Shown here piece by piece: positions 1 to 21,990 of a stretch of DNA of 27,486 bases (position 1 is its first letter; the number at the start of each line of letters is the position of its first letter). The notes beneath the pieces are model-generated. The model was not told the DNA's origin. It saw only the letters and a list, made by a program, of their open reading frames with translations, and made no database searches. The stretch comes from a virus. The stretch is taken from positions 1-27,486 of IMG/VR virus record IMGVR_UViG_3300009418_005501; one strand, given 5' to 3'. Position numbers and translations under genes: made by a program.

Positions 1-1695
1 TATTACTTCCAAATCATCGTTAACACGATAAAGTTTATAATAGACATCCTCAACTAAATCAATTGGTGCTTTTTTTGAAGACACTGTATAGATGGTTGGA
101 CTCCAATCTTTTTTTCTTGTGTACAATCTAAATCTAGCTTTTGTATTTTGATTAGAATATGATGGCTTTAAGTTAGTAATATTACTCACAAATTGCTGAT
201 TTGGGTTAAATGATTGTCCGGGCCAAACTTGAGTTAAACTTTTCGGCTCAATTGATCCTGTATAATATTGAACGCTGGCGCTGTGCCACACATCATAAAC
301 AGTAGTTAAAGATGTCGAGCCAGTAAACGCAAAAGAGGCTGAATATATGCCGGTAGAAACATAACCTCCCGTGACATTATAATCTCCAGATGTTACGACG
401 CCCCCACCAACGCTTAAAGCTAACGTCGCGCCCGAAGGGGCAGTATTATCCGAAGAGCCGGAATATAAACTAACCAATATAGCGCCAGTTCCAACTGCCG
501 GAATGTTCTTTAATTGACCTCGTACATAATTGTAATAATAAATTGTATTTAAATTATCGGCAGCAGGAGCTAAAGAACTGCTGTAATAAAAGCTCCCTCT
601 ATCATCTTTTATAGAAGAATCCCACCGAGCTTCAATAATTGGTCTATAGAAAAAATATTGAGACCCTCGTGCAAAAAACTTTTTAGTATAATAGGAAACA
701 GAGTCAGATTCTTCAGTGGAAGACAATTTAACTCCGACACCATAATTTGATTTAGAGCCCAATACATTTCCTGCACTATTAATCCATTGCTCAACTAGCG
801 GAGTAATATCTAACTCCAAATCCTCGAAACCAGTATTGAAGGAAGCAGTAAAAGAGGAAGAGGCGTCTGAATAATAATCACCGCCCTCTGTTGTCCACAA
901 AGTATAATCACTTCCGCCGCCAAGAGTTCCACTTAATCCACTATTGGCAACGCTGTCACTACCCGTAACATCAAAAACGGCGGCGGCGCTAGAAGATATA
1001 GAATTTAAATTTCCTGCTGCTCCTGCGGCGGATGAAGTAATATAAACAATAGAACTAACAGCATTTGCACTAAAGTCTGCGCTAGCTGACGTATTTATTA
1101 TTGTAACTATATTGGTGGCGCATGCAGCAGTGCTGCCTCCAATGTGAAAAAAGTCGGGCGCCGGGGTTGCATCATTTATAGAAGTAAACAAATAATTCGC
1201 TGTTGCTCCAGTTAAATGGAGTGTGTTAGCGGCTGTATTCGCTCGTACAGTTATAGATGCGCTAGCGGCAATATCCGTATCTGTTGTGTAAAGCCAGTTT
1301 GATGGCTCTTCATTAGAATAATTTTCCATATCTAAGCCATTGCCCTCTTGCCAAGATTGAGAAATCGCTGATACAACTAGATTAAAATCCTTTGGCGTTG
1401 TTTGGGAATGTCTTGCGTTGAACATTCTTAAATAAAAGGAAACGCTTCCGGAGGCCGGGATATTTCCTTGAGTGCGATCATATGAAATATAATTCGCGGC
1501 AGTCCCAGTGACCGGAAATTTAATTAAAATTCTAGCATATTCAGTTGATGAAGCTGATTCCTGTGCATATATGGAAAATGATTCTACTATGTCTGATTGG
1601 CCCATATTGCCACTGACGCCGCGTTCGGTTAAATTAGCTTTATAAGCATTAGTAATTGTATTGTCTGCGTCTGCAGTGTATCTTTTAATAGCCAT
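1..1695 (-). CDS. Putative virion structural protein, Ser/Thr/Ala-rich, 3' end cut by window edge
   Basis: I translated this frame by hand from the ATG at 1695: it stays open for 565 codons to the window edge, so the C-terminus is missing. The start overlaps the gp6 stop in a TAATG junction, which implies translational coupling. The protein is rich in Ser, Thr, Ala, Gly and Tyr, has no signal peptide or membrane segment, and looks beta-rich. Residues 1-80 have a pattern (charged start, then YARILIKFPV, then an SxSFYLRMFNA strand) that resembles DNRLRE/CBM96-type beta-sandwich modules, and a second such region around residue 290 has LDITPLVEQWI followed by YGVGVKLSS. Lying directly after gp6 suggests a baseplate-peripheral or fibre-network protein of the virion. 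The DNRLRE resemblance is from memory and is weak; the function is not established. Confidence 0.75.
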   Translation of the reverse strand, partial: MAIKRYTADADNTITNAYKANLTERGVSGNMGQSDIVESFSIYAQESASSTEYARILIKFPVTGTAANYISYDRTQGNIPASGSVSFYLRMFNARHSQTTPKDFNLVVSAISQSWQEGNGLDMENYSNEEPSNWLYTTDTDIAASASITVRANTAANTLHLTGATANYLFTSINDATPAPDFFHIGGSTAACATNIVTIINTSASADFSANAVSSIVYITSSAAGAAGNLNSISSSAAAVFDVTGSDSVANSGLSGTLGGGSDYTLWTTEGGDYYSDASSSFTASFNTGFEDLELDITPLVEQWINSAGNVLGSKSNYGVGVKLSSTEESDSVSYYTKKFFARGSQYFFYRPIIEARWDSSIKDDRGSFYYSSSLAPAADNLNTIYYYNYVRGQLKNIPAVGTGAILVSLYSGSSDNTAPSGATLALSVGGGVVTSGDYNVTGGYVSTGIYSASFAFTGSTSLTTVYDVWHSASVQYYTGSIEPKSLTQVWPGQSFNPNQQFVSNITNLKPSYSNQNTKARFRLYTRKKDWSPTIYTVSSKKAPIDLVEDVYYKLYRVNDDLEVI

Positions 1696-3491
1696 TACTC
1701 TACGGTGCCTCCAATATCTAAATCTGGATATTTTATTTCAAAAATAGTATCCGTTGGTGGAAATAAAAATCTACCATCAGGAGAAAGAGCCTCTTCTATA
1801 GATATTGGAGCATCAGCATAACCATCGCCAACCTTTACTTTTAATTTAACATCCACAACATCCATAAGGTCTGGAATGGATTTTAATATTTGATATATAT
1901 CTGTAATTATTATGGGCTCTCCAATATAAAACGTCTTAGTGAAGGCATTTCTTAACGTATCGTTGGCCTCAACTAAAAGATCATATTTGTTTGTGCCAGG
2001 AAATGGTACGATTTTAAACTCTATTCCAATATTGCATATCTTTGCATCTAAAATGTCGATTGTATCATTGACCATCTTATATTGATTTATCCATGTTTTT
2101 AAGTTATTTTTAAGTGTGGTATTAGCAACCACCAAATCTCCATCGGAATTTTCGGCAAGTACATAATAATTTATATTACGCTGGTTATATGAGTCAGTAT
2201 CTAATTCCAAAGCTGCCCTTTTAATTTTTCCAAATTTTGATGGCATGTTATAGCCCAATGCTATATAATCTTGTTTGGTCACTGCCCTGTTTTGAGAAGC
2301 AAAGTTGGCCATGGCCCTTTCTTTTATTTCTTCAATGCTTATAAGGCCAACGTCGCCAGTAACAGGCGCTTCATTTAAAACGGCCAAACTATTTTGTACT
2401 CCAGATATTGTAGCTTCGTTTAATAAGCCTTCTTGTTCGGCCAAGAATGAAAAATCTGCAGTGCCGATTCTTGTTATTGTTTGTGCGGCTGCATTAACAT
2501 TTTCATTTGTGTTAATTCTATAAATAATAGTTAATGTAGTGCTGGATGGTGACACTCCTAATTTATCAGTTTTGTTTAAGATAGAAGGGTCAAAAGAGGT
2601 ATCTGTAACATAATCTTTTGCATGCAATTGTAATATAACCTCAGACGGATCTTTGACTTCAACAGGAGTTTCTTCACTTCCTTGACCAAATTGTAAAAAT
2701 AGGCCATCAGGGGTAGAATCAACCCTAAATCTCCTAGAAACAGAAACAGGCTTTAATATATATGGAACGGTATTATTGTCAGGATTTCTATTTATTACAG
2801 GGACATGAAGAACGTCCTGGCTCAAATAATCAACTTCAAAATACTGATTTCCATTATCATCAAACACTGAGATTATTTCACTTATATTTTCACCAACCAT
2901 GGAAACCCTTTGAAATGGAGTATATTCTCCAACGTATACTTCTTGTACTGCTAATTCACCAGAAATTATTTGACCCGCTGTCCTGACTGCATAGGAAGTT
3001 GGATTTCCTGTGGTGGCATCCTGATTTGCAACTACAATTGGATTATCAGAAAGCGCAAAATTTACATCCTCTAACAAAGAAAAAATTGTATCGTTTGTTG
3101 ATATAAAAGTCGATCCCTTGCGTAAAATGGGCATATATTTTTCATCAGGTGCCTGAGAGGAGGCTTCAGCCGGAACGGTAATATAAAAATTGCACACGCC
3201 AAACGAAGACGGATATGGCTTATATTTATAGCCCATTTGTCGACTTAGCTTGAGTACATTATCAAATTCAATGGCAGTGTCTAAAAAAGATTCGTTGGCT
3301 TGGTAATCCGTGTAAAACGAAAGCATATCCCCAACATAAGCAACGGTATCCAACATTATAGAACCAAAAGATGCTTCAGTGAAATCTCTATAATTATCTG
3401 GGTAATATCTCTTGACATATGATTCTAATTCACTTCTAATTGAAGTAAAATCGCGATTAGTATAATTTATTGCTGGTTTTTTCGTTGCCAT
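1695..3491 (-). CDS. 6: Baseplate wedge subunit, T4 gp6-like
   Basis: This 598-residue protein matches the T4-like gp6 baseplate wedge family (T4 gp6 is about 660 residues). Recognisable features are the N-terminal INYTNRDFTSIRSEL segment, the DFTEASFGSIMLDTVAYVGDML stretch at about residues 37-60 and the downstream QANESFLDTA, all typical of gp6 in T4-like phages. The C-terminal half, with an NRAVTKQDYIALGY segment near residue 400, follows the baseplate J/gp6 pattern. In T4, gp6 dimers link neighbouring wedges into the ring around the central hub. The ATG at 3491 has an AAGGA ribosome site about 12 bases upstream. gp25 lies 32 bases upstream, and the stop overlaps the next start by one base. 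The identification rests on motif recognition. Confidence 0.9.
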   Translation of the reverse strand: MATKKPAINYTNRDFTSIRSELESYVKRYYPDNYRDFTEASFGSIMLDTVAYVGDMLSFYTDYQANESFLDTAIEFDNVLKLSRQMGYKYKPYPSSFGVCNFYITVPAEASSQAPDEKYMPILRKGSTFISTNDTIFSLLEDVNFALSDNPIVVANQDATTGNPTSYAVRTAGQIISGELAVQEVYVGEYTPFQRVSMVGENISEIISVFDDNGNQYFEVDYLSQDVLHVPVINRNPDNNTVPYILKPVSVSRRFRVDSTPDGLFLQFGQGSEETPVEVKDPSEVILQLHAKDYVTDTSFDPSILNKTDKLGVSPSSTTLTIIYRINTNENVNAAAQTITRIGTADFSFLAEQEGLLNEATISGVQNSLAVLNEAPVTGDVGLISIEEIKERAMANFASQNRAVTKQDYIALGYNMPSKFGKIKRAALELDTDSYNQRNINYYVLAENSDGDLVVANTTLKNNLKTWINQYKMVNDTIDILDAKICNIGIEFKIVPFPGTNKYDLLVEANDTLRNAFTKTFYIGEPIIITDIYQILKSIPDLMDVVDVKLKVKVGDGYADAPISIEEALSPDGRFLFPPTDTIFEIKYPDLDIGGTVE

Positions 3492-3523: not shown

Positions 3524-3919
3524 TTAAGCTGTAAAAGTAATAGCTAATGTGTCGTCTAGGCCCACACTGGGAATTGTATAGTGAATTTGTAATCCTAGAG
3601 AGTTTGTAGGCTCGTTTTCGCCCGGGCTATCCTGAAGGTCTATCACATTAATATCTGTAACTCGAACAAAGGGAACATATTTTTTTACCTGCTCCATAAT
3701 TTTGCCCCTAAGTGATGTATGAGTAACCATTTTAGTATCAAATAAATAATTACGAACCCCAACTCCAAAATTAGGATCCATCATTCTTTCACCTGGGCAC
3801 GTTAAAACAACCATCTTAATGTTCTGCTTCATAACGGCGCCTATAGTTTTATTTAATTTGTAATACCCATCAACAGGATCGTGTTGCAGTGGTAATTTTG
3901 GAGAATAACCGATTCCCAT
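3524..3919 (-). CDS. 25: Baseplate wedge subunit, T4 gp25-like
   Basis: A 131-residue protein, almost the same length as T4 gp25 (132 residues). The conserved core of the gp25/GpW lysozyme-like fold is visible at about residues 45-65: a CPGERMMDPNFGVGVRNYLFD segment containing the ER...DPxFG...LF signature. In contractile systems gp25 joins the wedge core to gp6 and to the sheath initiator, and despite the family name it is not thought to be a working lysozyme. The ATG at 3919 is preceded by a strong AGAGGAG ribosome site 9 bases away (3929-3935). A 70-base AT-rich gap separates it from the giant gene upstream, one of the largest gaps in the window. The gp25-gp6 order matches many T4-like phages. 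Confidence 0.93.
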   Translation of the reverse strand: MGIGYSPKLPLQHDPVDGYYKLNKTIGAVMKQNIKMVVLTCPGERMMDPNFGVGVRNYLFDTKMVTHTSLRGKIMEQVKKYVPFVRVTDINVIDLQDSPGENEPTNSLGLQIHYTIPSVGLDDTLAITFTA

Positions 3920-6900: not shown

Positions 6901-9900
6901 TTTTTAAGAAACTCTTCTACAATACAAACTTTTATTAGCATTTTATATAATCCAAACAAATTTGCAATCTGAAGTGCGTCTGGTGTGGCAAACATACTAA
7001 CTACGCATTCTAGGCTTTTTCTAATATCATCTACGTCTAATTTATTTTTATCAGGATTTAATAAGGGTGTCGCGTCTGTGTCAATACATTTAGATTCAGT
7101 TTCTTGATTAGTTAGCGGAAGCGAATTAAAGTTCTTAGCTTCAAATAATTTATTTTTAGATGTATTATTCCAAACAGTCTCAAGAATTAAATTTGAAGCA
7201 ATCGGAAAAATGCCTTTAAATATGGAGGCTGGATTATCTCCAGTGACGGCCGTCATGAACATCATTTCTGGAAGAACTTTGCCAGTTGGTATAGACGGGC
7301 TTTTAAACCAATACTTAAAAAGCCCGTTCTCAAAATCATTCATATCAAAAATTTCACCTTCTTCTTCATCTTTCTTAGATTTTTCAGGAGGTGGATATTC
7401 ATAATCTTTAATATCCCCATTAAAACAAAGTACTTTAATTTGTGGGGATTCGATAGATGTTCCTTTAAAACCCATCGGATTGCCAGAAAAATTAAAAACC
7501 ATATATATGATATACGGCGTATTAGGAATATCATATTCAAATATTGCTATTTTATTCTCTGGTTCATATTTTATTAATTGATTCATGCCGCCGTTATCAG
7601 AAGTTGTAATTTCAGCAATCATATTCCGGAATTTCTTGGCAACAAGCTTCTTTCCTTCAGAATCGGTGTCCGATTCATAAGCGTCCACAGACGCTGCCAG
7701 CATAGTATTGACAGCGCTCTTATACGCAGCCGAAGGATCCTCTGGATCGACTTCCACATTGGACAGCTGATTAATCAAAATATTAACTGCATCGCCGCTC
7801 ATAACTTCTTTTATTAATGGTTTATAGGCGGAGAGGTTATTATTAAAAACGTCATCAATGGTTTTGTATGTACGATTATTCAGCCTTTCCTGCATAAAAA
7901 GCTGTGTTGGATCAGATTGATTAGGCATCATCGGCTTCATTCCAACTTGATTTGGAGAACAAGGGCCGCAAAAAAGTGGAGGATATAGATCTTCCATCAT
8001 CTGCTTATCCATTAACGGTAAAATTGCCGACAAATCATCTAAAACTTGTTGTTGATCTCCTTCAACTAAGGCTATAATATCGTCTGGCGCGATGGACTCA
8101 CCAAGATTCTCCACATTAATGGGGTCGCAAAGACTTGAAAAAGCACTTTGTAGGGCGTCATATTCATCAATAACTGCGTCATATGTATCCGGATCAATTA
8201 ACTTTCCCAAATCAAACAAAAAAGCATGTGCTTGAGTTGGAGAAATAAATCCGATTGGGAAAGGCAATTCGACAATTGCGCCCGAGTCAGGATCCTCTTT
8301 TTTATATGTCTGGTTCTCTTTGGTAGGATCATATCCAGTTTGTGCAACAATTGCGGCTAGAGATAGGCCTGGAAATTGTTGTAATATAGTCATACTCACT
8401 TCGTCGCCCATTAATATTAGTGCCGGCTCTTCATAATTTCCATCAAAAGAGCTGTCATTGCATTCAGTTGTAAATAATCTTTTTAATTCGCGGGGCGAAA
8501 ATGCATCTCCTAGCTTTTCAAACCCATCTACCAAAGTTTGAATGTCCTGGTTGAAAAAATGTTTTTCTTTAAGATCTTTAAACTTGTCCCAAAGTTCTTG
8601 TTCTCCCTTGTCTTTATATACTTGAGAGTCCATTATCCAATCTTTGGGGCTCGCAAAACCAAAGGGGCTATCGGTGCCATTACATAAATCTTTAGTTAAA
8701 TTCCCACTAAACTCATCCTTAACATATTTTAAAACAACCATTGTGGTAGCAAAAACGAGATTCATTCCCATATCTTTAAGACCATTTGCAAACGCGTCTT
8801 TGAAGCCTTTCATTTTATCCTCGGACTTCAGATACTTTTTAATAGGATTAATCATTCTGTCTAAAGCTAAAGTTCCATCCTGATCCGAATCATATAACTT
8901 ATCTTTTGCTGCGGTTGTCATCCCATCTATCATTTCATCAGAGATATCTTGGAATTCATCGAGTAAACGAGTGACTGGCCCGTATAAAGTTAATACACAA
9001 TCACATATGGCATCGCTAGCTTGATCATCAGCCCATTTTGCTAATTCTTCATTAAAGTCATCTGGGGCTCTTCCAAACTTCTTTTGCATATATGGGTCAG
9101 AACAATAAGCAGAAGTTAATTTAGACACAACCTGAATCTCTGTCCATGGAGTCGCTGGGTCGGGTGGAAATTTCTTGGGGTATCTAGCGGATGCAATTTT
9201 GTAAAGCTCGCCAACTCGGCCTGTAATCTTTCCTTCCAATTTTGCAATTGCCATTTCGCCTGGTGCACCCAGATTTCTTAAACATGGATAGAGTTGTTGT
9301 CGAATTTCTGCTATTGGCACCTTCTTCAATATCGTTTGGCATAAATGTCTTTTCATGTCGCTGTTTTTGACACATTTAAACAGAAGCGTTGCAGCTATTT
9401 TTATTAATTCAGATATTGGAATTCTGTTTAGCAACTTATCAAAAAGAGCCGTCATGGACTTTACCTCTCCACTGAGGGCTTTCAATAAATTATCGTCGCC
9501 AGCATACATGTTAGTAACATTTGATGCCCCAACAACCATATTTTTAACGTCCGGACTCATTAGTTGGAGGGGATCTTTTATATATTTCCCAGTAAACAGA
9601 AGGTCTTTAAATATCGGATTTTTTAACTGGAGTATATCCAAAGGCGTGCCTGGCATGGATCCACCCTGGCCAGAATAATGTACTTCTGGGGGAGGGTAAA
9701 TATATGTATGGACAAAATCTAACCATGATTGTTCCATGGAAAATAAATCAGTACTATAATTGCCCCCATCTTTTAAATATCGCGCATACCTTCTATTAAT
9801 TTCTGGCAATAAATGTATAAAATTATTAATTCCCGGGAGGGCAAATGGACCATTTCCTTTTATGGCATTAAGGCCTTCTTTAAGAATATAGGGGGTTAAA

Positions 9901-11021
9901 TCCGCGCCCTCTTCACACAAACAATCTGCAACTTCACTAAAAGAAACATATTGTAAAATATAATCTTTTGTAAAACCAAACTGCAATGCTGACAGTGGGG
10001 TAGTATCTTTTAACTCTTCTAAGCTAGGGTGGCCATTGGTTCGCATTAGGCCATCAAGTATCTGATAAATTTGACTTATGGAGCCGGCTGCACATTTAGC
10101 ATCAAAGTTGACTTCCACCCCTTCTCTAGCAAAAGCAATATTCATCTGTGCGTCAAAGTGTAGTAAAATATTTTCTAAATTTTCTAAATTTTGCTTAAGA
10201 TCTTTAACTAAAATTAATACTTCCCTATTGGTGACACTATAATCTATATTAGGAGCATTCTGAGATAATGAATCTACCCACCCTCGATCAAACATAACTT
10301 TAATCCATAAAGTCTGATATTCTGGAAGCCTAGGCACAATGTGCCAAGATTGTGTTGTTGACACCTCTTTTGGCTTGCCCGTAACTGGATCATTTGATCT
10401 TTTAACTTTTCTATTTTGTGGTATAAAACCAAAGTCTTTTGACCAATTTTTAATTTGGTCTTTGCGGATTGTCTTGTCTAAATCCTTTTCTAATTTTTTT
10501 AGTGCCCAAAATTTACAATTATTAACAAATTCCTCATTGCCAAGAAGGCCGACGCCGGGGGCTCCTTTTTTAGAAGCGGGATATCCAATATTATATTTAT
10601 TGAGCCCATCTTTATAATTAACCAAATTTGGATTTTTGGTCATGTTCTCAAAAACCAATGGAACTATATAATATTTGCCATCAGCTGATAAATGTGCTTT
10701 TTCTCTCTGCCACCAGAGTTGCTTATTCCCAATATTTTTCTTTTCATAATCTCTATTTTTTTCGTTCCCAAAAGTTACAGACGGTCCAATGCCATAAGAT
10801 TTCTTTATCACGCTTATTTTATATGCCCAACTAAAATTTTCTTCCGGAGGGAACAAATTAGCATCATTCATTTTCTTTTTGATGATACCCATGAATCCCT
10901 CAAGAGTCGGAGAATATTTGCCGCTTACTGCAGTCAAAACGACAACGCCTTTTTCTGGTTCCTCTTTTAATCTGTTATATAATTTTTCAATTATTATATC
11001 TAAAGCTGTTTTGTTAGCCAC
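3990..11021 (-). CDS. Giant baseplate-region protein of unknown function (2343 aa)
   Basis: One uninterrupted frame of 2343 codons with a GTG start, by far the largest gene here. I do not recognise a family. Visible features: no signal peptide or membrane segment; a basic N-terminal 120 residues; about 20 cysteines, including an FCGPC motif near residue 1017; an EF-hand-like Asp-rich loop (DSDQDGTLALD) near residue 710; a Lys/Glu-rich linker near residue 1220; and an acidic tail with six Glu residues close to the C-terminus. It sits between the putative spike gene and gp25, so a structural role in the baseplate is likely. One possibility is a functional stand-in for the large wedge proteins gp7 or gp10, which are not seen in this window; another is a tail-fibre attachment or tape-like protein. 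The gene is clearly coding; the function is inferred from position only. Confidence 0.85.
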   Translation of the reverse strand: MANKTALDIIIEKLYNRLKEEPEKGVVVLTAVSGKYSPTLEGFMGIIKKKMNDANLFPPEENFSWAYKISVIKKSYGIGPSVTFGNEKNRDYEKKNIGNKQLWWQREKAHLSADGKYYIVPLVFENMTKNPNLVNYKDGLNKYNIGYPASKKGAPGVGLLGNEEFVNNCKFWALKKLEKDLDKTIRKDQIKNWSKDFGFIPQNRKVKRSNDPVTGKPKEVSTTQSWHIVPRLPEYQTLWIKVMFDRGWVDSLSQNAPNIDYSVTNREVLILVKDLKQNLENLENILLHFDAQMNIAFAREGVEVNFDAKCAAGSISQIYQILDGLMRTNGHPSLEELKDTTPLSALQFGFTKDYILQYVSFSEVADCLCEEGADLTPYILKEGLNAIKGNGPFALPGINNFIHLLPEINRRYARYLKDGGNYSTDLFSMEQSWLDFVHTYIYPPPEVHYSGQGGSMPGTPLDILQLKNPIFKDLLFTGKYIKDPLQLMSPDVKNMVVGASNVTNMYAGDDNLLKALSGEVKSMTALFDKLLNRIPISELIKIAATLLFKCVKNSDMKRHLCQTILKKVPIAEIRQQLYPCLRNLGAPGEMAIAKLEGKITGRVGELYKIASARYPKKFPPDPATPWTEIQVVSKLTSAYCSDPYMQKKFGRAPDDFNEELAKWADDQASDAICDCVLTLYGPVTRLLDEFQDISDEMIDGMTTAAKDKLYDSDQDGTLALDRMINPIKKYLKSEDKMKGFKDAFANGLKDMGMNLVFATTMVVLKYVKDEFSGNLTKDLCNGTDSPFGFASPKDWIMDSQVYKDKGEQELWDKFKDLKEKHFFNQDIQTLVDGFEKLGDAFSPRELKRLFTTECNDSSFDGNYEEPALILMGDEVSMTILQQFPGLSLAAIVAQTGYDPTKENQTYKKEDPDSGAIVELPFPIGFISPTQAHAFLFDLGKLIDPDTYDAVIDEYDALQSAFSSLCDPINVENLGESIAPDDIIALVEGDQQQVLDDLSAILPLMDKQMMEDLYPPLFCGPCSPNQVGMKPMMPNQSDPTQLFMQERLNNRTYKTIDDVFNNNLSAYKPLIKEVMSGDAVNILINQLSNVEVDPEDPSAAYKSAVNTMLAASVDAYESDTDSEGKKLVAKKFRNMIAEITTSDNGGMNQLIKYEPENKIAIFEYDIPNTPYIIYMVFNFSGNPMGFKGTSIESPQIKVLCFNGDIKDYEYPPPEKSKKDEEEGEIFDMNDFENGLFKYWFKSPSIPTGKVLPEMMFMTAVTGDNPASIFKGIFPIASNLILETVWNNTSKNKLFEAKNFNSLPLTNQETESKCIDTDATPLLNPDKNKLDVDDIRKSLECVVSMFATPDALQIANLFGLYKMLIKVCIVEEFLKNIFMFSFANISDIIEDEAYMGIVKKNVKSSVESVLSTGYGPLLEYSEKIVNARRLTLDVDAMVDENGAPLDDVAKAEELKVKTPEESLDILIMEEALEVDSLMDSRIRYHTNPNWKDEFITLGEGEYFKNDFFKYAIHNEIMNKAMYPSRPKTLGDPNSLEKNKMPFFELIDKNEGWQIDGQKPFPSDLEGGLFFEPYVRMKSKLATTYNEPSSLEDAEPYFYSFWGKFKEAFALWESAIFRAYDDVNAYGMTYGAAPGITLQDVPHNQSVETGEPIINTFFTRDGGNPLYKNIFPLPGHSPTGAQSYGQPGVQVPNYEEVVRKIHNFIRKVIGKVEEEYEAHGLLIFDAPIAVKGGKLSTFWDFFLTFFSPVDKDGALWSWASDLNKPSDTSSIYKLIFQSTVSSLDTITQAFQEGITGGAGPAAFYNAFYYWQHYPNGVIPEARSNFRNRGVINFDSMGYYNFSEIADASFSKWNGSIIDIFSGAKETNIGVNDADVGAVATKNISNSFNKNYLLAIAQFMDRHGFDDFSALPDGITVESLAPDTVFGDSFVNLNIDYLCGIYEWLKRVVVEAPFDHWFDISLGMRLNLVVPYQGQDIDSDYIENLISELRDVEPYLPDIKIDRDYILDKTFLLSDPANQVRRWLCLPLEATEYDLRKYWEDVHKNLHPAGSPTTFGSDSVSSAFIDSPTPPLKENPWSLIMGKISDLGLEQGALEYNFSRGPSINNKANLYNNLFCPIKINVAYMQENKEPSTYYVNTASNNNPVRPTLWAACKLLNTSLAPHNRTTDDAESSPNPLREEIVHTLQNKIMEKTKGSKLLEEVLPIRQTVFSTALLYRYAMISAYPELQNLFFPTKLLINSFITQSIKILEGDYSYVNDAVEDVPQEEKLAMSAPSSQDVAAQFFELVVQMAANTVDPTWKTPWFFPGPLTPVGIIAKMISQIPDKDKDKLTEEEEECEDGTPQTDSG

Positions 11022-11045: not shown

Positions 11046-12035
11046 TTAAGTTGTAGATACTTGGCCACTATTAATATAGTCACTGCTAAATTGTTCTAAT
11101 CTTTGTATCTTAATACCGGAGCCTCTCATTCCGTGTAACATAAGGCTTTTCTTGCAAGATAGCGCACTTGTTATGGCGTCAAAGCCAGCAGTCATGCAAT
11201 CAAAAGACATTAGGGTTTCTCCCCCCGCAAGAGAAGTTGGGTTTCCAGTTGCAAGGGTACCAATAGCCATGCTAGTTGGAGATGGATGTTTGTGGCTCAT
11301 AAGTGCAGTATTAAATTTATGCTGAAACATTAAAAAATTATCCACAACGGTTGCCAATTCATTAATATTATCAACTATGTCATTTAGCGCCCTTAATACA
11401 TTATTTCCTTTTGGGATAGGTTGGGGCTTGCCGCCGCCGGCAATTAAATTAATACTGCCAGGTCCCCAAACTGGAAAGCCCAATGAATTTTTAAGATCTA
11501 TTCCGCTGCAAATTTTAATATTTTCACGTCCAATAATACGGAGCTGATCTGCCTTCACAACTGCAGCAGATTTCCCAGCCACCGACCCAATATTGCCGCC
11601 AGGGACTGCAAACATATCATCAACATCACATTTAGCAGAGACATAAATTCTAGCAGCATCTTTTTTTGCATTTGGATTAAGTGGCACTCCGGGAACTTTG
11701 CCCTTCGCTGTGCCATGTGAATCTAAACCTGCATATATATCGACCGCAGAACAGCCAAAAGCGCCGACTCCCCCATAACCGGCGCCATGTATATATGGTT
11801 CACCAGTTTTGGGATCCGTTTTTTCATTCATTCTGTCTAGACCGATTCTTATCCCAGAACCATAAGACCCTTCAATGTGATTTTCGCCTTTGGCATATCT
11901 AGATATATTAGGCACCCGATGGGGGTTGGGATCGCCATCAATGCCACTATAAAATATGCTTGTACTTCGGTCTAAATTTAATCCAGTTTGATCAAAAAAT
12001 AAAGCTCTATTTCTAAGGGGAATACTTAACGTCAT
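11046..12035 (-). CDS. Putative baseplate spike / gp5-like tip protein with HxH motif
   Basis: This 329-residue protein is Gly- and Asn-rich with no membrane segment. Residues about 165-215 (KADQLRIIGRENIKICSGID, then GSINLIAGGG) have the short alternating strands seen in the beta-helical spike parts of phage gp5/VgrG-type proteins. A helical stretch at about 218-245 (NDIVDNINELATVVDNFLMF) is followed by SHKHPSP with histidines 248 and 250. An HxH motif near the distal end binds iron in some phage spike tips such as P2 gpV. The gene lies between the hydrolase-bearing protein and the giant baseplate-region gene. The ATG at 12035 has an AAGGA site about 11 bases upstream. It could instead be another hub accessory protein; the spike assignment is by analogy. 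Confidence 0.55.
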   Translation of the reverse strand: MTLSIPLRNRALFFDQTGLNLDRSTSIFYSGIDGDPNPHRVPNISRYAKGENHIEGSYGSGIRIGLDRMNEKTDPKTGEPYIHGAGYGGVGAFGCSAVDIYAGLDSHGTAKGKVPGVPLNPNAKKDAARIYVSAKCDVDDMFAVPGGNIGSVAGKSAAVVKADQLRIIGRENIKICSGIDLKNSLGFPVWGPGSINLIAGGGKPQPIPKGNNVLRALNDIVDNINELATVVDNFLMFQHKFNTALMSHKHPSPTSMAIGTLATGNPTSLAGGETLMSFDCMTAGFDAITSALSCKKSLMLHGMRGSGIKIQRLEQFSSDYINSGQVSTT

Positions 12036-12049
12036 TTTATTATTTTCCT

Positions 12050-15000
12050 TTATGCGGAAGCTTTGTCCTTTTTCTTCACTACCGGCTTCGCTGTTTTAAG
12101 GTACACGGTTCCGGCCCCCCCTTGCGTCACCCAGGCGCGCCATGCTTTCGGTGAACTCTTATGGGGGCCGGTGTATGAACAACCATTTTTCTTTAATCTC
12201 GCACGTGCCCATTTAAAGTCTGCTCCATGTACTTTCAGCATTGAAGAGGACCAAGGCCTGTTCAATCTCACGTGATAGTGGTTAGCGTGAGCGGGTACCA
12301 TACTAAACATTTTCAGTATTTTTTTCCTTGTTGCTCCCCCATCTCCTACAAAAGCTTTAAATAACTTTTTAAACGCAGGATCGGGGGTACCAAACCAAAG
12401 ATCATATTGTTGTTTTTCCAACTCCAACATTCGTTTTTTTAGCCAGGGCCCAAATCTGGAGCCTTTTTTGTTGTTTACTCCAAAATATATTGCAGAGCCA
12501 GGAAAATATTTAAGTGTAAGAAGCCCCAACGCAATAGTTTTATCATAGTCTACAACCATGCCCTTGTGTTTTTTTGCTTTGTCAGGGCTCTCATAAAGTC
12601 GTTGAAAACGGCGGGGGGAGGCGCCTGGCCCCGACAGAACTAGGCTGGTACCAGGAGAGTTTTTATAATCAATTGGCAAAGTCATATCAAAATCATTACC
12701 CTCTCTGTGAGAATTGTGGCCTCGCACCATATCAATACCATTGGCCCATTTTGGGGAAACATCTCCTATCATCCATTGTATACCTGATTTTCCTTTTTGG
12801 GATCCTCTAACTATAGTAGCATATGCGCCGCTCTTAGCAGGTTTGGCAGCTTTACCCCATATGGGATTTTCTAAGACTTTATCTATAAATTCTCCTACTT
12901 TCTTATTACCATAAGAATAGTTATAAACTTGTCTCCTTTGAGCAGTATATTTTTTACCTTTTACAAAAGCTGATATATTAATTAATCCTAAAGGATTTGG
13001 GCCGCACTCTACTTTTCCAGAAGGGACGCTTCCCTTGGCGCCCTTTTTCTTGCCCTTAATTCTCGCTCTGCAATCTTTCTCACAGGCTTTCAATTGTTTT
13101 CGCTTAACTGTATTGGCTCTTTGTCTTGCTTTCTTGCCCTTTGCACATTTTACATTAGGGTCAGCTAATTTATGTTTATCAGGGAGTGGCTTTCCTTCGT
13201 AGTTATAAGCATTTCCATCATCGTCATATGAAACAGGAACTTCTGCTGGTTTTACTTTTATAGCCGGAGCTTTTATTGGAATTCCATCAACTTTTCCACT
13301 TTCTAATAAAGAAGGTGTGCCGAATCTTTTTTCTAGTGGGCCATAGTGGCCACCTGCGGTATTCAGGTCCAAATATAATCCTTCTAATTTAGTCAGATTA
13401 TCTGCTGGAGGGGGCTGAATATCTTTACATCCATTAAATTGTTTACCGCCGGGAAGACCTTTGGGGTCACAAGGATTTTGTGATATAAATCTTTTAATAT
13501 TTGGCTTAACAACGGTCAATGTTTCAGCCTCTTTGGGCGTATAAATGTGTATCTCCAAATCTTTCCCTGGATTAAAGCCACTTTTGTTATTCACAAAAAT
13601 CTTTTCAAAAACTGGATCAATCGCGAAGGAGTAAGAAGAGTCGAGATAATCTATTCTTTTAAGCTTAGTACTCCCAATTGTGTTACTAGATAATTGCTCC
13701 ACTAAACCAGCTAGAGAATAACCACCTCCAGAAAATGATTTAATATTTATAAATTTGGGATTGGCTGTTGCACCTAAACCTTTCTTAAGGTCGGTATTCT
13801 TTATTTTATCAACCACTTCTTTATGAAAATCCGCAAAAGTGGCGCCCGAGTCAGAGCCAAAAGTAGCTTTTTTAACCCCGATCTTAGAATAAACATTCAG
13901 CTGGGTCGTTACATATACTATATTTCTTTTTTGTTTGTGAACCATTTCATACAAAGACTCTTGAATTTTTTTTCTAAATCCCATCCCCCGCCAAAGAGTT
14001 TCTCCCGGAGAATCACCCTGGAGCCCATGGAGAAAATATATTAACTCATAAGGTTTCGTTAAATCAGCTCCTTGCGGGACGACAATTGCGGTCTTGCCTT
14101 TCTGTGCTTTAGTTTCTGAAGAATTATATAATAAAGTTTTTCCCTTAAACTCTGAAAAGAAACTTTTATCTTGGGCTGAAATTTCGGCACTGTCACCCTC
14201 AGACTTAATAACCATGCCGGGCGTTTTTAAGACTTCGGTTGCAGAAACTGCGGTTGGAGCGCTGGCCTCTTCCCACCATGTAATCCAGTCAAAACTGAGC
14301 GGGGCCGAAACTCCTCTGAAAATAAAATTCACCCATCGACCAGACAATCTTAAAGTTTTTGCTTTGTTGCTCTCAATAAATTTTTTGCCACTGTCGTATT
14401 CACCTTTGAGTTTCTTATAGTCCGGTTCGTTTTTGGCCAATTGGGTGCCCCCCTTCTTATAAATCAGGGCGCCCTCATAAAACTTTTTTAGTTCATCAAT
14501 GGCTTGATTTAAGGGATCTTTAGACGAAGCTAGCGTCATAGTAGTCAGCCATTCTATAGTGAATGAAGAGGTGCGACCGATGTATGCAGCAACAGCATTT
14601 TTAGGCAAGTCTGGGGCTTTATCTGATAAGTGATATTCAACTTCCACTTTGTTGGGATCAATGGCAATCATAATATCCTTTATGTCATTGTCGTGCCAAT
14701 GATTGGCCTCGGTAGAACTATAATCCGCGTCCCATAATTGTATTTTTTTCAAATTTTTAAACTTACCGAATTTTTTTATTCGAGCTAAGTTGGAAATTGC
14801 AATAGCGCCATAACGATCCGCAACCAAAGTTGTTTGTTGAATTTTTTTCTTTTGAATTGAAAATTTCTCACTTAAAACTTTATTAACTGCCCCAACTAGT
14901 TTTTCAATATGACCTGCAACTCCTGCGCCTATGGACTTTTGTTCATATGACATTGTTTGTCTATTAAATATTTTTGATGTACCATCGAAGTTCCATACCG

Positions 15001-16114
15001 GCCATTGTCTATCTCCGTATGTCGTGAGTTTCGTGTTTGGCTTCGATGTGGCGCGGGGATATCCATTATTTTTGGTCATTTTCTCCTTTGACCACATCAT
15101 TTCAGGCATTACAAAAACAAGATTCCGGCGGGCCCCATCAAATTGAGGATTTTTTTTGGTCATTTGAGTTATTGTTTTTCCAATCTCATTCCACTCTTTT
15201 GAATCATTTGCAAATTTTCCTTGATCATGGAAAAAATAAATTACTTCAAGGCCTTTATTTGGACTAACACCAGTTGGCATATATATTAGTACACTGCGAC
15301 CCTCTCCTTCGATCATCTGCAACCCGTCTTTTGTGCCGTTCCCCTCTAATTTACCAATATAAACAATTCCTTTAAAGTTATCATTGCTTTTGGGATCCAC
15401 TAATTTTGCTAGCCATTTCGGTGCTTCAGCTCCTGGGGCGCCATTTATTAATTTGTTTTCTTGATGGCCGGCGTCTGTAGTTAAAGGTATGACATCATCC
15501 AACTTAGATGCCTTCTTGTTTTTATTAATGCAATCTCCAACTGCCCCTTCGCCAGTATAACTTTTTTTGCAAGCGTCTATGCAATCTTTTAGTTCTTGTA
15601 CATTAGCTTTTATGTTTTTAGGATCTACAGGACCTGCAAAATACAGCCGGCTGATGGCCCCCTTATTTGCCAACTCTACCTTCACTAAGTCGCCAGGGGC
15701 GGCCCCTTGGCGCTGTACTAATGTATCGATTGCTTGTATTGTCGGGTATGCATCAATTGCCAGCTTATCTTGCCTGGTTTCTTCCGGAAGATTATCCGGT
15801 TTTGTTAACATAAAATGTAACTCAGGGACACAAACTTTATACGTATTTAAGCTGTATTTTGCAGAGGCGCCTGTGTTGGAATTTAATGCAACTGCACTAT
15901 CCTGGGGGGTGCATTCGTTATCAACCCTCAACAATACACCAATAAGAGTGCCAGAGGTTTTAAACTTATTTGGGGTAAAAACCCTATCCTTCATCCGAGC
16001 TATTATAGACTGAGGTGTCTCAGACTGAGAATCAATGCTCTCTTGATCTACATCATCAACATTAAAATCATTAAGATATCCTGGCTGAATATCCAATATT
16101 GGAGGCCTGCTCAT
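12050..16114 (-). CDS. Tail-associated multi-hydrolase: OB-like + two alpha/beta-hydrolase-like domains + M74 (MepA-type) endopeptidase
   Basis: The 1354-residue product appears modular. Residues about 45-180 look like an OB-type barrel (FKTSGTLIGVLLRVDN to GDLVKVELANKG...FAGPVDP), as in gp5-type hubs. Residues about 255-560 and 650-920 are two alpha/beta-hydrolase-like domains that share the layout of an IYFFHD or IYFLHG strand-loop. The second keeps a nucleophile elbow SFSGGG (about 792-797), an Asp in DYLDSSY and a His in GGHYG; the first has ADRYGA at the elbow position. A Lys/Arg/Cys-rich linker follows. Residues about 1070-1290 match penicillin-insensitive murein endopeptidase: GDVSPKW...GHNSHREGNDFDM (about 1118-1145) and HANHYHVRL (about 1275-1283), which carry the M74 zinc ligands. 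It probably opens peptidoglycan during DNA injection; ester substrates are unknown. Starts at an ATG 3 bases after the upstream gene's stop. Confidence 0.88.
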   Translation of the reverse strand: MSRPPILDIQPGYLNDFNVDDVDQESIDSQSETPQSIIARMKDRVFTPNKFKTSGTLIGVLLRVDNECTPQDSAVALNSNTGASAKYSLNTYKVCVPELHFMLTKPDNLPEETRQDKLAIDAYPTIQAIDTLVQRQGAAPGDLVKVELANKGAISRLYFAGPVDPKNIKANVQELKDCIDACKKSYTGEGAVGDCINKNKKASKLDDVIPLTTDAGHQENKLINGAPGAEAPKWLAKLVDPKSNDNFKGIVYIGKLEGNGTKDGLQMIEGEGRSVLIYMPTGVSPNKGLEVIYFFHDQGKFANDSKEWNEIGKTITQMTKKNPQFDGARRNLVFVMPEMMWSKEKMTKNNGYPRATSKPNTKLTTYGDRQWPVWNFDGTSKIFNRQTMSYEQKSIGAGVAGHIEKLVGAVNKVLSEKFSIQKKKIQQTTLVADRYGAIAISNLARIKKFGKFKNLKKIQLWDADYSSTEANHWHDNDIKDIMIAIDPNKVEVEYHLSDKAPDLPKNAVAAYIGRTSSFTIEWLTTMTLASSKDPLNQAIDELKKFYEGALIYKKGGTQLAKNEPDYKKLKGEYDSGKKFIESNKAKTLRLSGRWVNFIFRGVSAPLSFDWITWWEEASAPTAVSATEVLKTPGMVIKSEGDSAEISAQDKSFFSEFKGKTLLYNSSETKAQKGKTAIVVPQGADLTKPYELIYFLHGLQGDSPGETLWRGMGFRKKIQESLYEMVHKQKRNIVYVTTQLNVYSKIGVKKATFGSDSGATFADFHKEVVDKIKNTDLKKGLGATANPKFINIKSFSGGGYSLAGLVEQLSSNTIGSTKLKRIDYLDSSYSFAIDPVFEKIFVNNKSGFNPGKDLEIHIYTPKEAETLTVVKPNIKRFISQNPCDPKGLPGGKQFNGCKDIQPPPADNLTKLEGLYLDLNTAGGHYGPLEKRFGTPSLLESGKVDGIPIKAPAIKVKPAEVPVSYDDDGNAYNYEGKPLPDKHKLADPNVKCAKGKKARQRANTVKRKQLKACEKDCRARIKGKKKGAKGSVPSGKVECGPNPLGLINISAFVKGKKYTAQRRQVYNYSYGNKKVGEFIDKVLENPIWGKAAKPAKSGAYATIVRGSQKGKSGIQWMIGDVSPKWANGIDMVRGHNSHREGNDFDMTLPIDYKNSPGTSLVLSGPGASPRRFQRLYESPDKAKKHKGMVVDYDKTIALGLLTLKYFPGSAIYFGVNNKKGSRFGPWLKKRMLELEKQQYDLWFGTPDPAFKKLFKAFVGDGGATRKKILKMFSMVPAHANHYHVRLNRPWSSSMLKVHGADFKWARARLKKNGCSYTGPHKSSPKAWRAWVTQGGAGTVYLKTAKPVVKKKDKASA

Positions 16115-16117
16115 CTA

Positions 16118-16423
16118 TTATTTATCTCCACTCTGGATTATATCAAAAAGATGCTCCTTATCTTCATCATTTAATTCTAAAGAGTCGTCCCGCCTTTTGT
16201 TTAAAATTGCAGTAATTTTAACTAACTGCTCATTAGAGCGCTGCAGGGTTTCAACATATTTAGAAGCAATCATGCCTAATTGTTTGTGGTTCTCTAAATC
16301 AGAGGTTTTTTTCATCTCCAATAAAAGATCTGTTAATAAGGTACTTGTTATCGCTCGATCATTTCTAATGTTTTTTATTGACTCTTCAATATAGTCATTA
16401 ATGTCCTCTACTCTTCTTCCCAT
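16118..16423 (-). CDS. Small helical protein next to sigma factor; possible gp33-like late co-activator
   Basis: A 101-residue, charged and predicted all-helical protein with no Cys or membrane segment. Its start overlaps the sigma gene by 16 bases, so the two are probably translationally coupled. The C-terminus ends with an acidic-hydrophobic segment, NDEDKEHLFDIIQSG. In T4, the late co-activator gp33 (112 residues) works with sigma gp55, and both carry short acidic-hydrophobic C-terminal tails that bind the sliding clamp. The size, partner gene and tail make a gp33-like role possible, but I see no clear sequence match, and a structural or scaffolding-type small protein is equally possible. 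The coding assignment is safe; the function is a guess. Confidence 0.75.
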   Translation of the reverse strand: MGRRVEDINDYIEESIKNIRNDRAITSTLLTDLLLEMKKTSDLENHKQLGMIASKYVETLQRSNEQLVKITAILNKRRDDSLELNDEDKEHLFDIIQSGDK

Positions 16424-17097
16424 TTCTTTCTAAAATCCCTATACTTAATCCTTAATTTGTTTAAGGAGCTTACGACTTGTTTGGTGTTTAAACCAGTAAT
16501 CTCTCTGATGTATAGGTAAATAGCTTTCTTATTAAAAATTTCTATATTTTCAGATTCTTCAAAAAGAATTTTTACGGCTTGAATAACTTTTTTATCATTT
16601 GTTCTTGTTGCCACCACTTCCCATGCAACAATATTGTTCCTAAAGTGCGCCCAAAATTCTCTTTTAATTGCATCTTGCATTGAAGTATTATAAACAACAA
16701 GGGGGTGACTATTATTAATATTCTCACTCTCAGGCACACAATAATTTTCAATTAATACTTCTCGCCTATATCTCTGTGATGTTTTCTTGACTTTGTGTAT
16801 AAACCAATTTTTTGTTATGACACTAAAATAAGAAAAAGCCTTTGAACCCTTGCTTGGGTCATATTTATCTAATATAGTGATCAGCCAATTTTTACAGTCT
16901 TCTTTTAAATAATCAATATTGGGAAGGCTAGTAAACTTGTAAGTATAAACAATTTTATCAACCATTTCGTCAAAGGCCGGGCCGATGAGTGTTGCGTATA
17001 AAGAATTTCTTGTTTTTGGATCATTCGTATTACAATATTCAATTATTGCATTTTCATGTACTTTTGTAAAATACATGTTTTTTCTTTTACGAGCCAT
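16408..17097 (-). CDS. 55: Phage late-transcription sigma factor, T4 gp55-like
   Basis: A 229-residue basic protein with a sigma-70 region 2-like core. At about residues 78-106 the KYDPSKGSKAFSYFSVITKNWFIHKVKK segment matches the region 2 helix that contacts the RNA polymerase clamp and the -10 element. No sigma region 4 is evident, in agreement with gp55-type factors, which recognise only the short late -10 box and depend on gp33 and the sliding clamp. The N-terminus is Lys/Arg-rich and the C-terminus ends in Trp-Glu-Glu-Glu. The ATG at 17097 is 3 bases after the upstream gene's stop, with a GAGGAAG site upstream. It would direct host RNA polymerase to virion genes such as those just downstream. 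A non-gp55 phage sigma is the alternative. Confidence 0.87.
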   Translation of the reverse strand: MARKRKNMYFTKVHENAIIEYCNTNDPKTRNSLYATLIGPAFDEMVDKIVYTYKFTSLPNIDYLKEDCKNWLITILDKYDPSKGSKAFSYFSVITKNWFIHKVKKTSQRYRREVLIENYCVPESENINNSHPLVVYNTSMQDAIKREFWAHFRNNIVAWEVVATRTNDKKVIQAVKILFEESENIEIFNKKAIYLYIREITGLNTKQVVSSLNKLRIKYRDFRKKWEEE

Positions 17098-17100
17098 TGT

Positions 17101-17400
17101 TTATATGTCTTCCTCATTATGCCCTTCTTCATCAGCATAATTAATATCATAAGTGGCCCTAAAATTTTTAGCGCTTTCCGAAAGAAGCTTCGAGTGCCGC
17201 AAAAGATTCTCCAACGTAGTATCCCCATAAAATCTTTCTAAATTATATACAATATCAACATGCTCAGAGTACTCTTCTAAACTAATAAATAAGCCTTCTA
17301 GTTCCTCAGATATATTAAGAAAACGCTTTACTAACTGTACTATATACCAAACTAATAATCCATTGATTACAACGGAAATTCCTAAAAATATTTCAATCAT
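17101..17400 (-). CDS. Small single-pass membrane protein
   Basis: A 99-residue protein with one N-terminal hydrophobic segment (about residues 3-24, IFLGISVVINGLLVWYIVQLV) followed by a soluble, helical, acidic domain ending in Glu-Glu-Asp-Ile. The topology suggests an anchored cytoplasmic domain. The start forms an ATGA overlap with the stop of the upstream zinc-ribbon gene, and the stop lies 3 bases before the sigma gene. I do not recognise a function; small proteins of this shape are common in T4-like phages. A holin role is unlikely because only one hydrophobic helix is visible and the rest is long and charged. Confidence 0.75.
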   Translation of the reverse strand: MIEIFLGISVVINGLLVWYIVQLVKRFLNISEELEGLFISLEEYSEHVDIVYNLERFYGDTTLENLLRHSKLLSESAKNFRATYDINYADEEGHNEEDI

Positions 17401-17648
17401 CTTTTATCCTTCAGCTCCTCTTTGTGTTGATCAAGCTCTTTTTTAGAATTCTTAATGAATTCTTCAACATGAGAACCAACTTTTGGTTTGTCGGGTTCCG
17501 GGCTCTTAGAGAGATTGTGAAAAATACTTGGCTTGCGATAAATATTTTTAGACTTACAGCGTTTGCAGTCTTCGGCCTCTTCAGTCATGCCATGATTTTC
17601 TTTCCATTCTTCACAGCAATCATCACATGCATAGACATATATGGGCAT
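17397..17648 (-). CDS. FmdB-type zinc ribbon protein
   Basis: An 83-residue protein whose first 35 residues match the FmdB/CxxC zinc-ribbon family: the MPIYVYAC start, then Cys8, Cys11 (and Cys12), Cys28 and Cys31, which form two CxxC knuckles that should hold one zinc ion. The rest is Lys/Glu-rich and probably helical or disordered (PDKPKVGSHVEEFIKNSKKELDQ). FmdB-like proteins are often annotated as putative regulators but their role in phages is not established; binding of nucleic acid or of another protein are both possible. It lies in the small-gene run that leads into the sigma factor, 1 base after the upstream gene and overlapping the next by 4 bases. Confidence 0.85.
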   Translation of the reverse strand: MPIYVYACDDCCEEWKENHGMTEEAEDCKRCKSKNIYRKPSIFHNLSKSPEPDKPKVGSHVEEFIKNSKKELDQHKEELKDKR

Positions 17649-17649
17649 T

Positions 17650-17883
17650 TTATGCCTTGTTGTCTGTATCTGTGGTATCTACATTTTGTTGTAAACTTTC
17701 TTCAAAATTATCATCAAATTTAACAAGCGGAGGATTTATAACCACCAATCCATGTGGGGAATCTTTTATCTTAAAGCCGCTCAATACCGGAACAATATCA
17801 GATTGCTCCATTAAACTTTTTTGTAGCGCCATCATAACAGCTCCCACGGCTTGATCTGACATTCGCATTTCTTTTAATTTCAT
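17650..17883 (-). CDS. Small conserved-looking phage protein of unknown function
   Basis: A 77-residue protein with a helical N-terminal half (MSDQAVGAVMMALQKSLMEQ), a short beta-type segment around IVPVLSGFKIKD and GLVVINPP, and an acidic, low-complexity C-terminus. It resembles small unnamed proteins that I associate with T4-like aquatic phages, but I cannot name a family. The ATG overlaps the gmd stop in an ATGA junction. It marks the switch from sugar genes to the small genes before the sigma factor. The coding call rests on tight packing and plausible composition. Confidence 0.7.
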   Translation of the reverse strand: MKLKEMRMSDQAVGAVMMALQKSLMEQSDIVPVLSGFKIKDSPHGLVVINPPLVKFDDNFEESLQQNVDTTDTDNKA

Positions 17884-18857
17884 TTAATTTCTCCTTTTAT
17901 TAAATTGTAATCATGATCATACATCATTTCGGCTAAACCTTTAAATGTTATACTTGGGCCCCAATTTAGTTTCTCTTTTGCTTTTGTATAATCTCCCAAA
18001 AGCAGCGGCACCTCATGAGGTCTGTAAAATTGAGGATCGATATCAACATAAAATTCAGGATTTCCTAGGCCTGCGTGATGGAATACATAATGTAAAAACT
18101 CTTCCACGGTATGTGCTTCATTTGTAGCAATAACATAATCTCCTGGCTTATCTTGTTGTAACATAAGCCACATGGCTTTAACATAATCGCCGGCGAAACC
18201 CCAATCCCTTTTAGAATGTATATTTCCTAATGAAAGTCTTTTCTGTAATCCTAATTTAATCCTCGCTGCAGCCAGAGTAATCTTTCTAGTTACAAAGGTC
18301 TCTCCTCTTCGTGGGGATTCGTGATTAAAAAGAATCCCACTTGAAGCATGGATACCATATGATTTTCTATAATTCCTCACAAGATTGTGTGCAAACACTT
18401 TTGCACAGGCGTAAGGAGAGGCCGGCATAAGCTTAGACTCCTCATTAAAAGGAATGTTGACATTATCGCCAAACATTTCAGAAGATGAAGCCTGATAAAA
18501 GCGGGCATGTGGTACAATGTGGCGCATGGCCTCCAATAATCGTAATGTCCCCATGGCCACGCCGTCTACGGTATTTATCGGCACGTCAAAAGATACTCTA
18601 ACATGAGATTGAGCAGCTAAATTGTAAATTTCATCTGGTTTATATTTCAAAAATAATGACCACATGCATGAAGAATCATTTAGATCAAAATATTCTAAAA
18701 TAAAATTTTCATTATTATAAATATGATCAACCCTTTCAGTGCGAATAGTAGATGTCCTTCGTTTCGCACCGACCACTTTATACCCCTTTTCTAACAATAA
18801 CTCTGCTAAATAAGAACCATCTTGACCAGTTGCTCCTGTAATAAAAGCTGTTTTCAT
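17880..18857 (-). CDS. gmd: GDP-mannose 4,6-dehydratase
   Basis: A 325-residue extended short-chain dehydrogenase that converts GDP-D-mannose to GDP-4-keto-6-deoxy-D-mannose, the common precursor of GDP-L-fucose, GDP-D-rhamnose, GDP-perosamine and 6-deoxytalose. The NADP-binding glycine motif GATGQDGSY is at residues 8-16. The GMD-specific RRTSTIRTERVDHIY region follows at about 33-47. The catalytic set is Ser126/Glu127 in SSSEMFG and Tyr149/Lys153 in YACAK. FNHESPRRGETFVTRKI (about 207-223) is a hallmark of GMD. Length is close to that of small bacterial GMDs. It overlaps both neighbours by 4 bases (ATGA), so it is co-translated with the SDR gene upstream. GDP-mannose would have to come from the host, since no mannose-activating gene is seen here. 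Confidence 0.95.
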   Translation of the reverse strand: MKTAFITGATGQDGSYLAELLLEKGYKVVGAKRRTSTIRTERVDHIYNNENFILEYFDLNDSSCMWSLFLKYKPDEIYNLAAQSHVRVSFDVPINTVDGVAMGTLRLLEAMRHIVPHARFYQASSSEMFGDNVNIPFNEESKLMPASPYACAKVFAHNLVRNYRKSYGIHASSGILFNHESPRRGETFVTRKITLAAARIKLGLQKRLSLGNIHSKRDWGFAGDYVKAMWLMLQQDKPGDYVIATNEAHTVEEFLHYVFHHAGLGNPEFYVDIDPQFYRPHEVPLLLGDYTKAKEKLNWGPSITFKGLAEMMYDHDYNLIKGEIK

Positions 18858-19687: not shown

Positions 19688-19695
19688 TTATTTAT

Positions 19696-19700
19696 TCCTT
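19696..19700 (-). promoter_or_regulatory. Ribosome binding site deciding the GTG start of the SDR gene
   Basis: On the minus strand AAGGA lies 8 bases before the GTG at 19687. Starting there keeps the KILVTG strand and the glycine motif intact; no in-frame ATG lies nearby that would. Confidence 0.7.
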
Positions 19701-19725
19701 TTTGTTAAAATTATATCTAATTTTT

Positions 19726-21969: not shown

Positions 21970-21990
21970 TTTTCGGCAACCACAACTTTC

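Follow-up and report, generated by a model that had tools for sequence, protein, structure and literature searches.

The window analysed here is the whole 27,486-base stretch of the IMG/VR virus record IMGVR_UViG_3300009418_005501, whose long genes lie on the minus strand. One of these, referred to as the hub gene (12050-16114), encodes a 1354-residue modular protein. This protein is probably a tail-tip protein of a T4-type contractile-tailed phage, either the baseplate hub or a protein attached to it, and would carry its own envelope-cutting tools. It consists of an N-terminal anchor domain, two tandem domains with an alpha/beta-hydrolase fold (domains A and B), a linker and a C-terminal peptidase domain of the M74 type (MepA-like, LAS). 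A sequence-only reading of this DNA had described the open reading frame (giving no strand), its location in a baseplate cluster, the two alpha/beta-hydrolase-like domains and a MepA-type C-terminus with two zinc motifs. These observations were confirmed, with the motifs lying at most one residue from the positions it had quoted, and the interpretation placed on them was partly supported.

The same full architecture was identified in five distinct full-length relatives in IMG/VR, the proteins of which are 32-58% identical to that of the window (L007, 58%; L008, 50%; L009, 45%; L019, 37%; L041, 32%). Another IMG/VR contig (L002) encodes a protein identical to the window hub, and a sixth relative is represented by its C-terminal part only (L003, 48% identity). 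As the architecture is kept down to approximately 30% identity in five distinct relatives, it is not a product of chance. Within the DNA retrieved, the gene order around the hub is likewise kept in every full-length relative. Searches of 50,697 phage records by tblastn, using the whole protein and its domains, gave no match to the hub, and a tblastn search of the same records with MepA also gave none. No relative was found when the hub alignment was compared with 84,980 prokaryote species genomes by a pattern-based scan, in which only fairly close relatives are visible. Searches of Pfam, PHROG and NCBIfam with the hub returned a weak M74 match and otherwise matches at chance level only.

The position of the hub gene is that of a gp5-type hub, being within a baseplate gene cluster containing wedge genes. 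The order of this cassette is of the T4 type, with a gp55-like sigma factor followed by a gene of 101 amino acids (aa), the hub, genes of 329 aa and 2343 aa, gp25 and gp6 (Table 1). The gp6-like protein shows 34% identity to Microcystis phage Mel-JY01 and 32% to Flavobacterium phage immuto. The 329-aa partner of the hub is likely a spike/tip protein; a relationship of its family to the Mel-JY01 type was not accepted (E 0.013). No significant match was obtained for the 2343-aa protein in Pfam and PHROG searches, and a counterpart of 1496 to 2488 aa occupies the place between gp25 and the 329-aa gene in every relative. A small zinc-ribbon-like protein (17397-17648, minus strand; PF09723, E 5e-7, under the curated cut-off) is also encoded in this region, its gene being kept upstream of the sigma factor in relatives.

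The anchor domain is shared with other proteins occupying the same genomic slot. Comparison with the N-termini of the slot proteins L023-L026 gave an hhalign probability of 99.1 (E 3.9e-19 over 158 columns; reversed control, E 0.58), and a weaker profile match was seen with L027, L031 and L032 (E 2.7e-7). The slot proteins L023-L033, L202, L215 and L216 have the same neighbour genes as the window hub, anchor homology being found among L023-L027, L031 and L032 and weakly in L215, whereas their enzyme loads are different (VanY, Amidase_2, SLT-like, DUF2272). VanY domains were identified in L024 and L026 (E 3e-11 and 6e-21, respectively), Amidase_2 in L025 and weakly in L027, and a weak SLT domain in L031. 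Elsewhere, in proteins placed by slot and not by anchor, the slot holds VanY (L011), Amidase_2 (L029 and L202), DUF2272 (L033) and M23 (L030); L011 and L030 are contig-edge fragments. Since homologous anchors are fused to VanY, Amidase_2 and SLT, the slot can be described as an anchor with exchangeable wall enzymes. It is a modular entry hub, and the window lineage carries an unusual cargo in it. As the same anchor bears other wall hydrolases in the sister proteins, the enzymes appear to be exchanged from lineage to lineage, presumably to suit the host envelope.

Two other arrangements were seen in this slot. The 983-aa slot proteins of L027 (4009-6960) and L028 (6941-9892) possess a LAS-type motif (WGHAAKSSHKWGSGLDF) together with an Amidase_2-like domain, forming another two-enzyme version. 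A separate gene located directly after the hub gene of L023 (8653-9882) encodes a protein with the SGNH-hydrolase motifs GDS, GND (GxND) and DxxH, for which there was no Pfam or PDB match; here a putative esterase is a stand-alone neighbour of the hub.

Homology between domains A and B was shown by hhalign (probability 96.6, E 5e-10), and adding L041 lowered the E-value to 1e-10. In an AlphaFold model of the two together, both cores are of medium confidence, most blocks scoring 60-87, and strands alternate with helices as expected of an alpha/beta-hydrolase. The leading fold matches of this model in the PDB are alpha/beta hydrolases, headed by the feruloyl esterases 6y8g, 1gkk, 1gkl and 7xrt (Foldseek E 3e-5 to 8e-5, probability 1.00). 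These matches are to the joint model, and the fold was assigned to each domain through its secondary structure and the homology between A and B. The sequence profile of domain B matched six PDB sequences, all of them feruloyl esterase domains (best E 0.008, the others weak). According to the Foldseek result, the names endo-1,4-beta-xylanase Y and Z among these matches refer to feruloyl esterase modules. The CE1 feruloyl esterases XynY, XynZ and BT_4077 provide the best fold matches and the sole PDB sequence-profile matches, whereas the sequence similarity of the hub domains to them is marginal and the putative catalytic acid appears to lie after strand 6. Domain A also matched designed armadillo repeats, but along its N-terminal edge only, and these matches were discarded. 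An 'Esterase' of Arthrobacter phage Seahorse was another Foldseek hit.

The two domains differ in their catalytic residues. The nucleophile elbow of domain A, which in the model joins strand 425-433 to helix 436-445, lacks Ser in all six proteins. L215 (2530-5757) encodes a simpler hub protein, in which the same anchor is combined with one domain of type A and the C-terminus is of another, LAS-like kind (GNHTNCCAFDF...HYDW). It matches the hub proteins across the anchor and the type-A domain (blastp E about 1e-10) and domain A by hhalign (E 4e-11; reversed control, 0.02). Inspection places Gly at its elbow, and it possibly represents the ancestral state before duplication. Given the lack of Ser in the six proteins and the Gly of L215, domain A is predicted to be a non-catalytic copy. 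That both domains, called esterase-like in the sequence-only reading, are esterases was thus rejected. A plausible triad is present in domain B only, made up of Ser795, Asp825 and His923 as judged from sequence and from a model of low-to-medium confidence. The elbow of this domain is located between strand 786-793 and helix 798-807; around residue 923 the alignment is gappy and the model is of low confidence.

The window protein, L008 and L009 each have the complete set of three residues. All three positions are changed in L007 (to K, N and A, respectively) while the surrounding domain is retained, and elsewhere L019 is without the His and L041 without the Ser. It is possible, though on balance unlikely, that A and B are both binding or structural domains, that the M74 domain is the sole enzyme and that the Ser-Asp-His of domain B is a relic. 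Domain A, non-catalytic throughout, is yet slightly better conserved than domain B (mean pairwise identity 39.2% versus 36.7%), which agrees with that explanation, as does the incomplete triad of three lineages. Set against it are the retention of all three residues in the other three proteins and their joint loss in L007, which suggests that they work together. An esterase function of domain B is the preferred reading.

The C-terminal domain was recognised as M74-type by its motifs and by profile matching. Four of the six members gave a weak match to the Pfam M74 profile (best E 0.0036, not reaching the gathering threshold), and NCBIfam MepA matched the hub with E 0.003. Comparison of the hub C-terminus with about 30 aligned M74 proteins from one bacterial phylum gave an hhalign probability of 90 and E 1.6e-6 over MepA residues 61-123, versus 0.33 for the reversed control and 0.4-0.8 for domains A and B; the second motif was located separately using E. 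coli MepA. In the first motif, His1133, His1136 and Asp1143 align with MepA His110, His113 and Asp120. In MepA, zinc is bound by His113, Asp120 and His211. The residues invariant in M74 (H110, S112, H113, G116, D120, H206, H209, H211 and R213, as judged at the two motifs in 30 family members) correspond to hub residues 1133, 1135, 1136, 1139, 1143, 1276, 1279, 1281 and 1283. MepA (E. coli b2328) and the hub domain thus have the same conserved His/Asp/Arg set in the same order, and are 29% identical across 63 aligned columns. They differ in that MepA is a stand-alone enzyme whereas the hub peptidase is part of a larger protein, and in the stretch between the motifs (133 residues in the phage domain, 86 in MepA). 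All motif histidines and Asp1143 are kept in five of the seven family members. Conserved cysteines (990, 1011, 1015, 1037 and 1312) were noted in and around the linker that precedes the M74 domain (linker, 12998-13279; peptidase domain, 12053-12997), where disulfides or a metal site are possible.

The HxxxxxxD...HxH core is common to LAS families. An M15-like LAS peptidase (a carboxypeptidase or L-Ala-D-Glu peptidase) in place of M74 was therefore considered, the VanY (M15) domains of sister slot proteins and the sub-gathering Pfam score also pointing in this direction. Such an assignment is improbable, as GHxSHxxGxDxD and HxxHxHxR agree with M74 residue for residue, including the equivalents of His110, His206 and Arg213, and as VanY matches sister proteins and not the window hub.

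Table 1. Features of the hub gene and its baseplate cassette in the window
Feature	Position	Strand	Remarks
Hub gene, modular protein, probable baseplate hub/tip	12050..16114	-	ATG start, 1354 aa, intact, without internal stop
N-terminal anchor domain, residues 1-205	15500..16114	-	Common to other proteins of the same genomic slot
Domain A, residues 215-600, alpha/beta-hydrolase fold	14315..15472	-	Predicted catalytically dead by sequence
Arg434, nucleophile-elbow position of domain A	14813..14815	-	R, R, G, R, G, H in six proteins
Domain B, residues 610-945, alpha/beta-hydrolase fold, feruloyl-esterase-like	13280..14287	-	Putative active esterase
Ser795, putative nucleophile of domain B (SFSGG)	13730..13732	-	S in 4/6; K in L007, H in L041
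Asp825, putative acid of domain B	13640..13642	-	After strand 816-823; D in 5/6, N in L007
His923, putative catalytic His of domain B	13346..13348	-	After strand 913-918; lost in L007 and L019
Linker, residues 946-1039	12998..13279	-	Conserved Cys990, Cys1011, Cys1015, Cys1037
C-terminal M74-type (MepA-like, LAS) peptidase domain, residues 1040-1354	12053..12997	-	Motifs and profile match
GHNSHREGNDFD, residues 1132-1143	12686..12721	-	His1133; predicted Zn ligands His1136 and Asp1143
HANHYHVRL, residues 1276-1284	12263..12289	-	His1276, His1279, His1281, Arg1283 = MepA His206, His209, His211, Arg213
gp55-like late sigma factor, upstream slot marker	16408..17097	-	PHROG 234, E 6.9e-6
329-aa partner gene	11046..12035	-	Adjoins hub gene in all relatives
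2343-aa baseplate-cassette protein	3990-11021	-	Between 329-aa gene and gp25
gp25-like baseplate wedge protein, cassette marker	3524..3919	-	PF04965, E 2.5e-10; PHROG 261
gp6-like baseplate wedge protein, cassette marker	1695..3491	-	PHROG 219, E 8e-24

Directly upstream of the hub region is a large sugar gene cluster (17880-27422, minus strand). It encodes a GDP-mannose 4,6-dehydratase, an epimerase, two FkbM methyltransferases, a GT10 fucosyltransferase-like protein, a GT2 and further glycosyltransferases, and its make-up varies among relatives at the same place. The proximity of these glycan genes would fit hub domains working on the phage side or in assembly, for example with domain B trimming the glycan of this cluster, an explanation that is very improbable given that the upstream genes vary among relatives while the hub is retained and that sister slot proteins bear typical wall hydrolases.

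Several results weigh against a tail-tip protein with its own enzymes. Its location in the virion is something that we infer, and its N-terminal domain is without a sequence link to gp5 and is poorly modelled. Sequence searches with the anchor against T4 gp5 and all PDB chains gave no relevant match, neither T4 gp5 nor the hub-slot proteins of Mel-JY01, immuto and LR756508 gave a significant result when compared with it, and the AlphaFold predicted local distance difference test score (pLDDT) is below 50 across residues 1-212; the OB-like start described in the sequence-only reading could not be confirmed. The AlphaFold models, made from shallow alignments, are weak (mean pLDDT 50 and 54), the poor model of the C-terminal domain (mean pLDDT 54) giving no usable Foldseek match. 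For domain B there was no Pfam match that would place it in Esterase (PF00756) or CE1, and its match to an FrmB-type profile (E 0.19) was no better than the reversed control. The domain B triad is intact in three of six proteins only. L019 (9989-14179) retains the proximal M74 motif but has lost the three distal histidines (HxxHxH), and its peptidase is by its sequence likely inactive; L041 has Arg at the His209 equivalent. As the catalytic residues are not universal, the activities may be dispensable in some lineages, or the domains may be binding modules there.

With these points taken into account, a tail-tip protein bearing envelope-cutting domains remains the probable identity of the hub. 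To judge from the slot shared with its homologues, residues 1-205 would anchor the protein in the baseplate. On contraction, the ester-removing and cross-link-cutting domains would be delivered to the host envelope. Domain A, being predicted as non-catalytic, most likely holds or positions a surface or wall polymer, or may be purely structural, acting as a spacer. Domain B would most likely strip an ester-linked group, acyl or other, off an envelope polymer by means of Ser795, Asp825 and His923. The C-terminal domain, which bears the signature of an M74 zinc endopeptidase, would cut peptidoglycan cross-links and so allow passage of the tail tube. A doubtful extension of this scheme, offered tentatively, is a capture-and-cut pair in which the conserved pseudo-esterase A holds on to the esterified polymer and its active twin B strips the ester, so that the M74 domain of the same chain gains access, domain A having come first (as in L215) and been duplicated to give B.

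Bacteriophage T4 gp5 is both a baseplate hub subunit and the tail lysozyme (gene 5, NC_000866; PMC3004832). It resembles the window hub in that its gene lies shortly before the gp6 wedge gene in the baseplate cluster, and in being a structural protein with wall-cutting activity (PMC3004832), an activity that is predicted for the hub. In contrast to gp5, the hub has no detectable sequence homology to it and no lysozyme domain, its load being two alpha/beta-hydrolase domains and M74. The C-terminal triple beta-helix is part of gp5 itself, whereas in the window phage the separate 329-aa gene may serve this role. T4 gp5 is hence a functional counterpart of the hub and not a detectable homologue.

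A parallel in activities is Gp44 (Tal) of Staphylococcus phage phi11, in which an endopeptidase and a lipase/esterase or SGNH hydrolase are reported to be joined in one tail/baseplate protein (PMC5380687). As compared by description, this phage has a Gram-positive host and the peptidase of Gp44 is N-terminal, whereas that of the hub is C-terminal; the second domain of Gp44 is called a lipase/esterase or SGNH hydrolase and not an alpha/beta-hydrolase (PMC5380687). Because of phi11 Gp44, an endopeptidase with an esterase in one tail protein is not unprecedented. The literature search returned no report joining an M74 or feruloyl-esterase domain to a phage baseplate. The domain combination, which the sequence-only reading had called unfamiliar, is accordingly new and rare as an architecture, being present in the five full-length IMG/VR relatives and in none of the phage records searched, while this kind of cell-entry tool and the combination of activities are already known. 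The cell-wall entry machine suggested in that reading is plausible; in some relatives the triad or the M74 site has been lost.

By 2017, only one virion-associated lysin of a phage infecting Gram-negative bacteria had been shown to be an endopeptidase (PMC5380687). If the host of the window phage is Gram-negative, the chemistry of the hub would be uncommon, and new enzymes active on the wall could be drawn from it. More broadly, related uncultured phages pair the one anchor of this baseplate slot with wall enzymes of several kinds; alpha/beta-hydrolases and a predicted M74 endopeptidase are the addition seen in one lineage.

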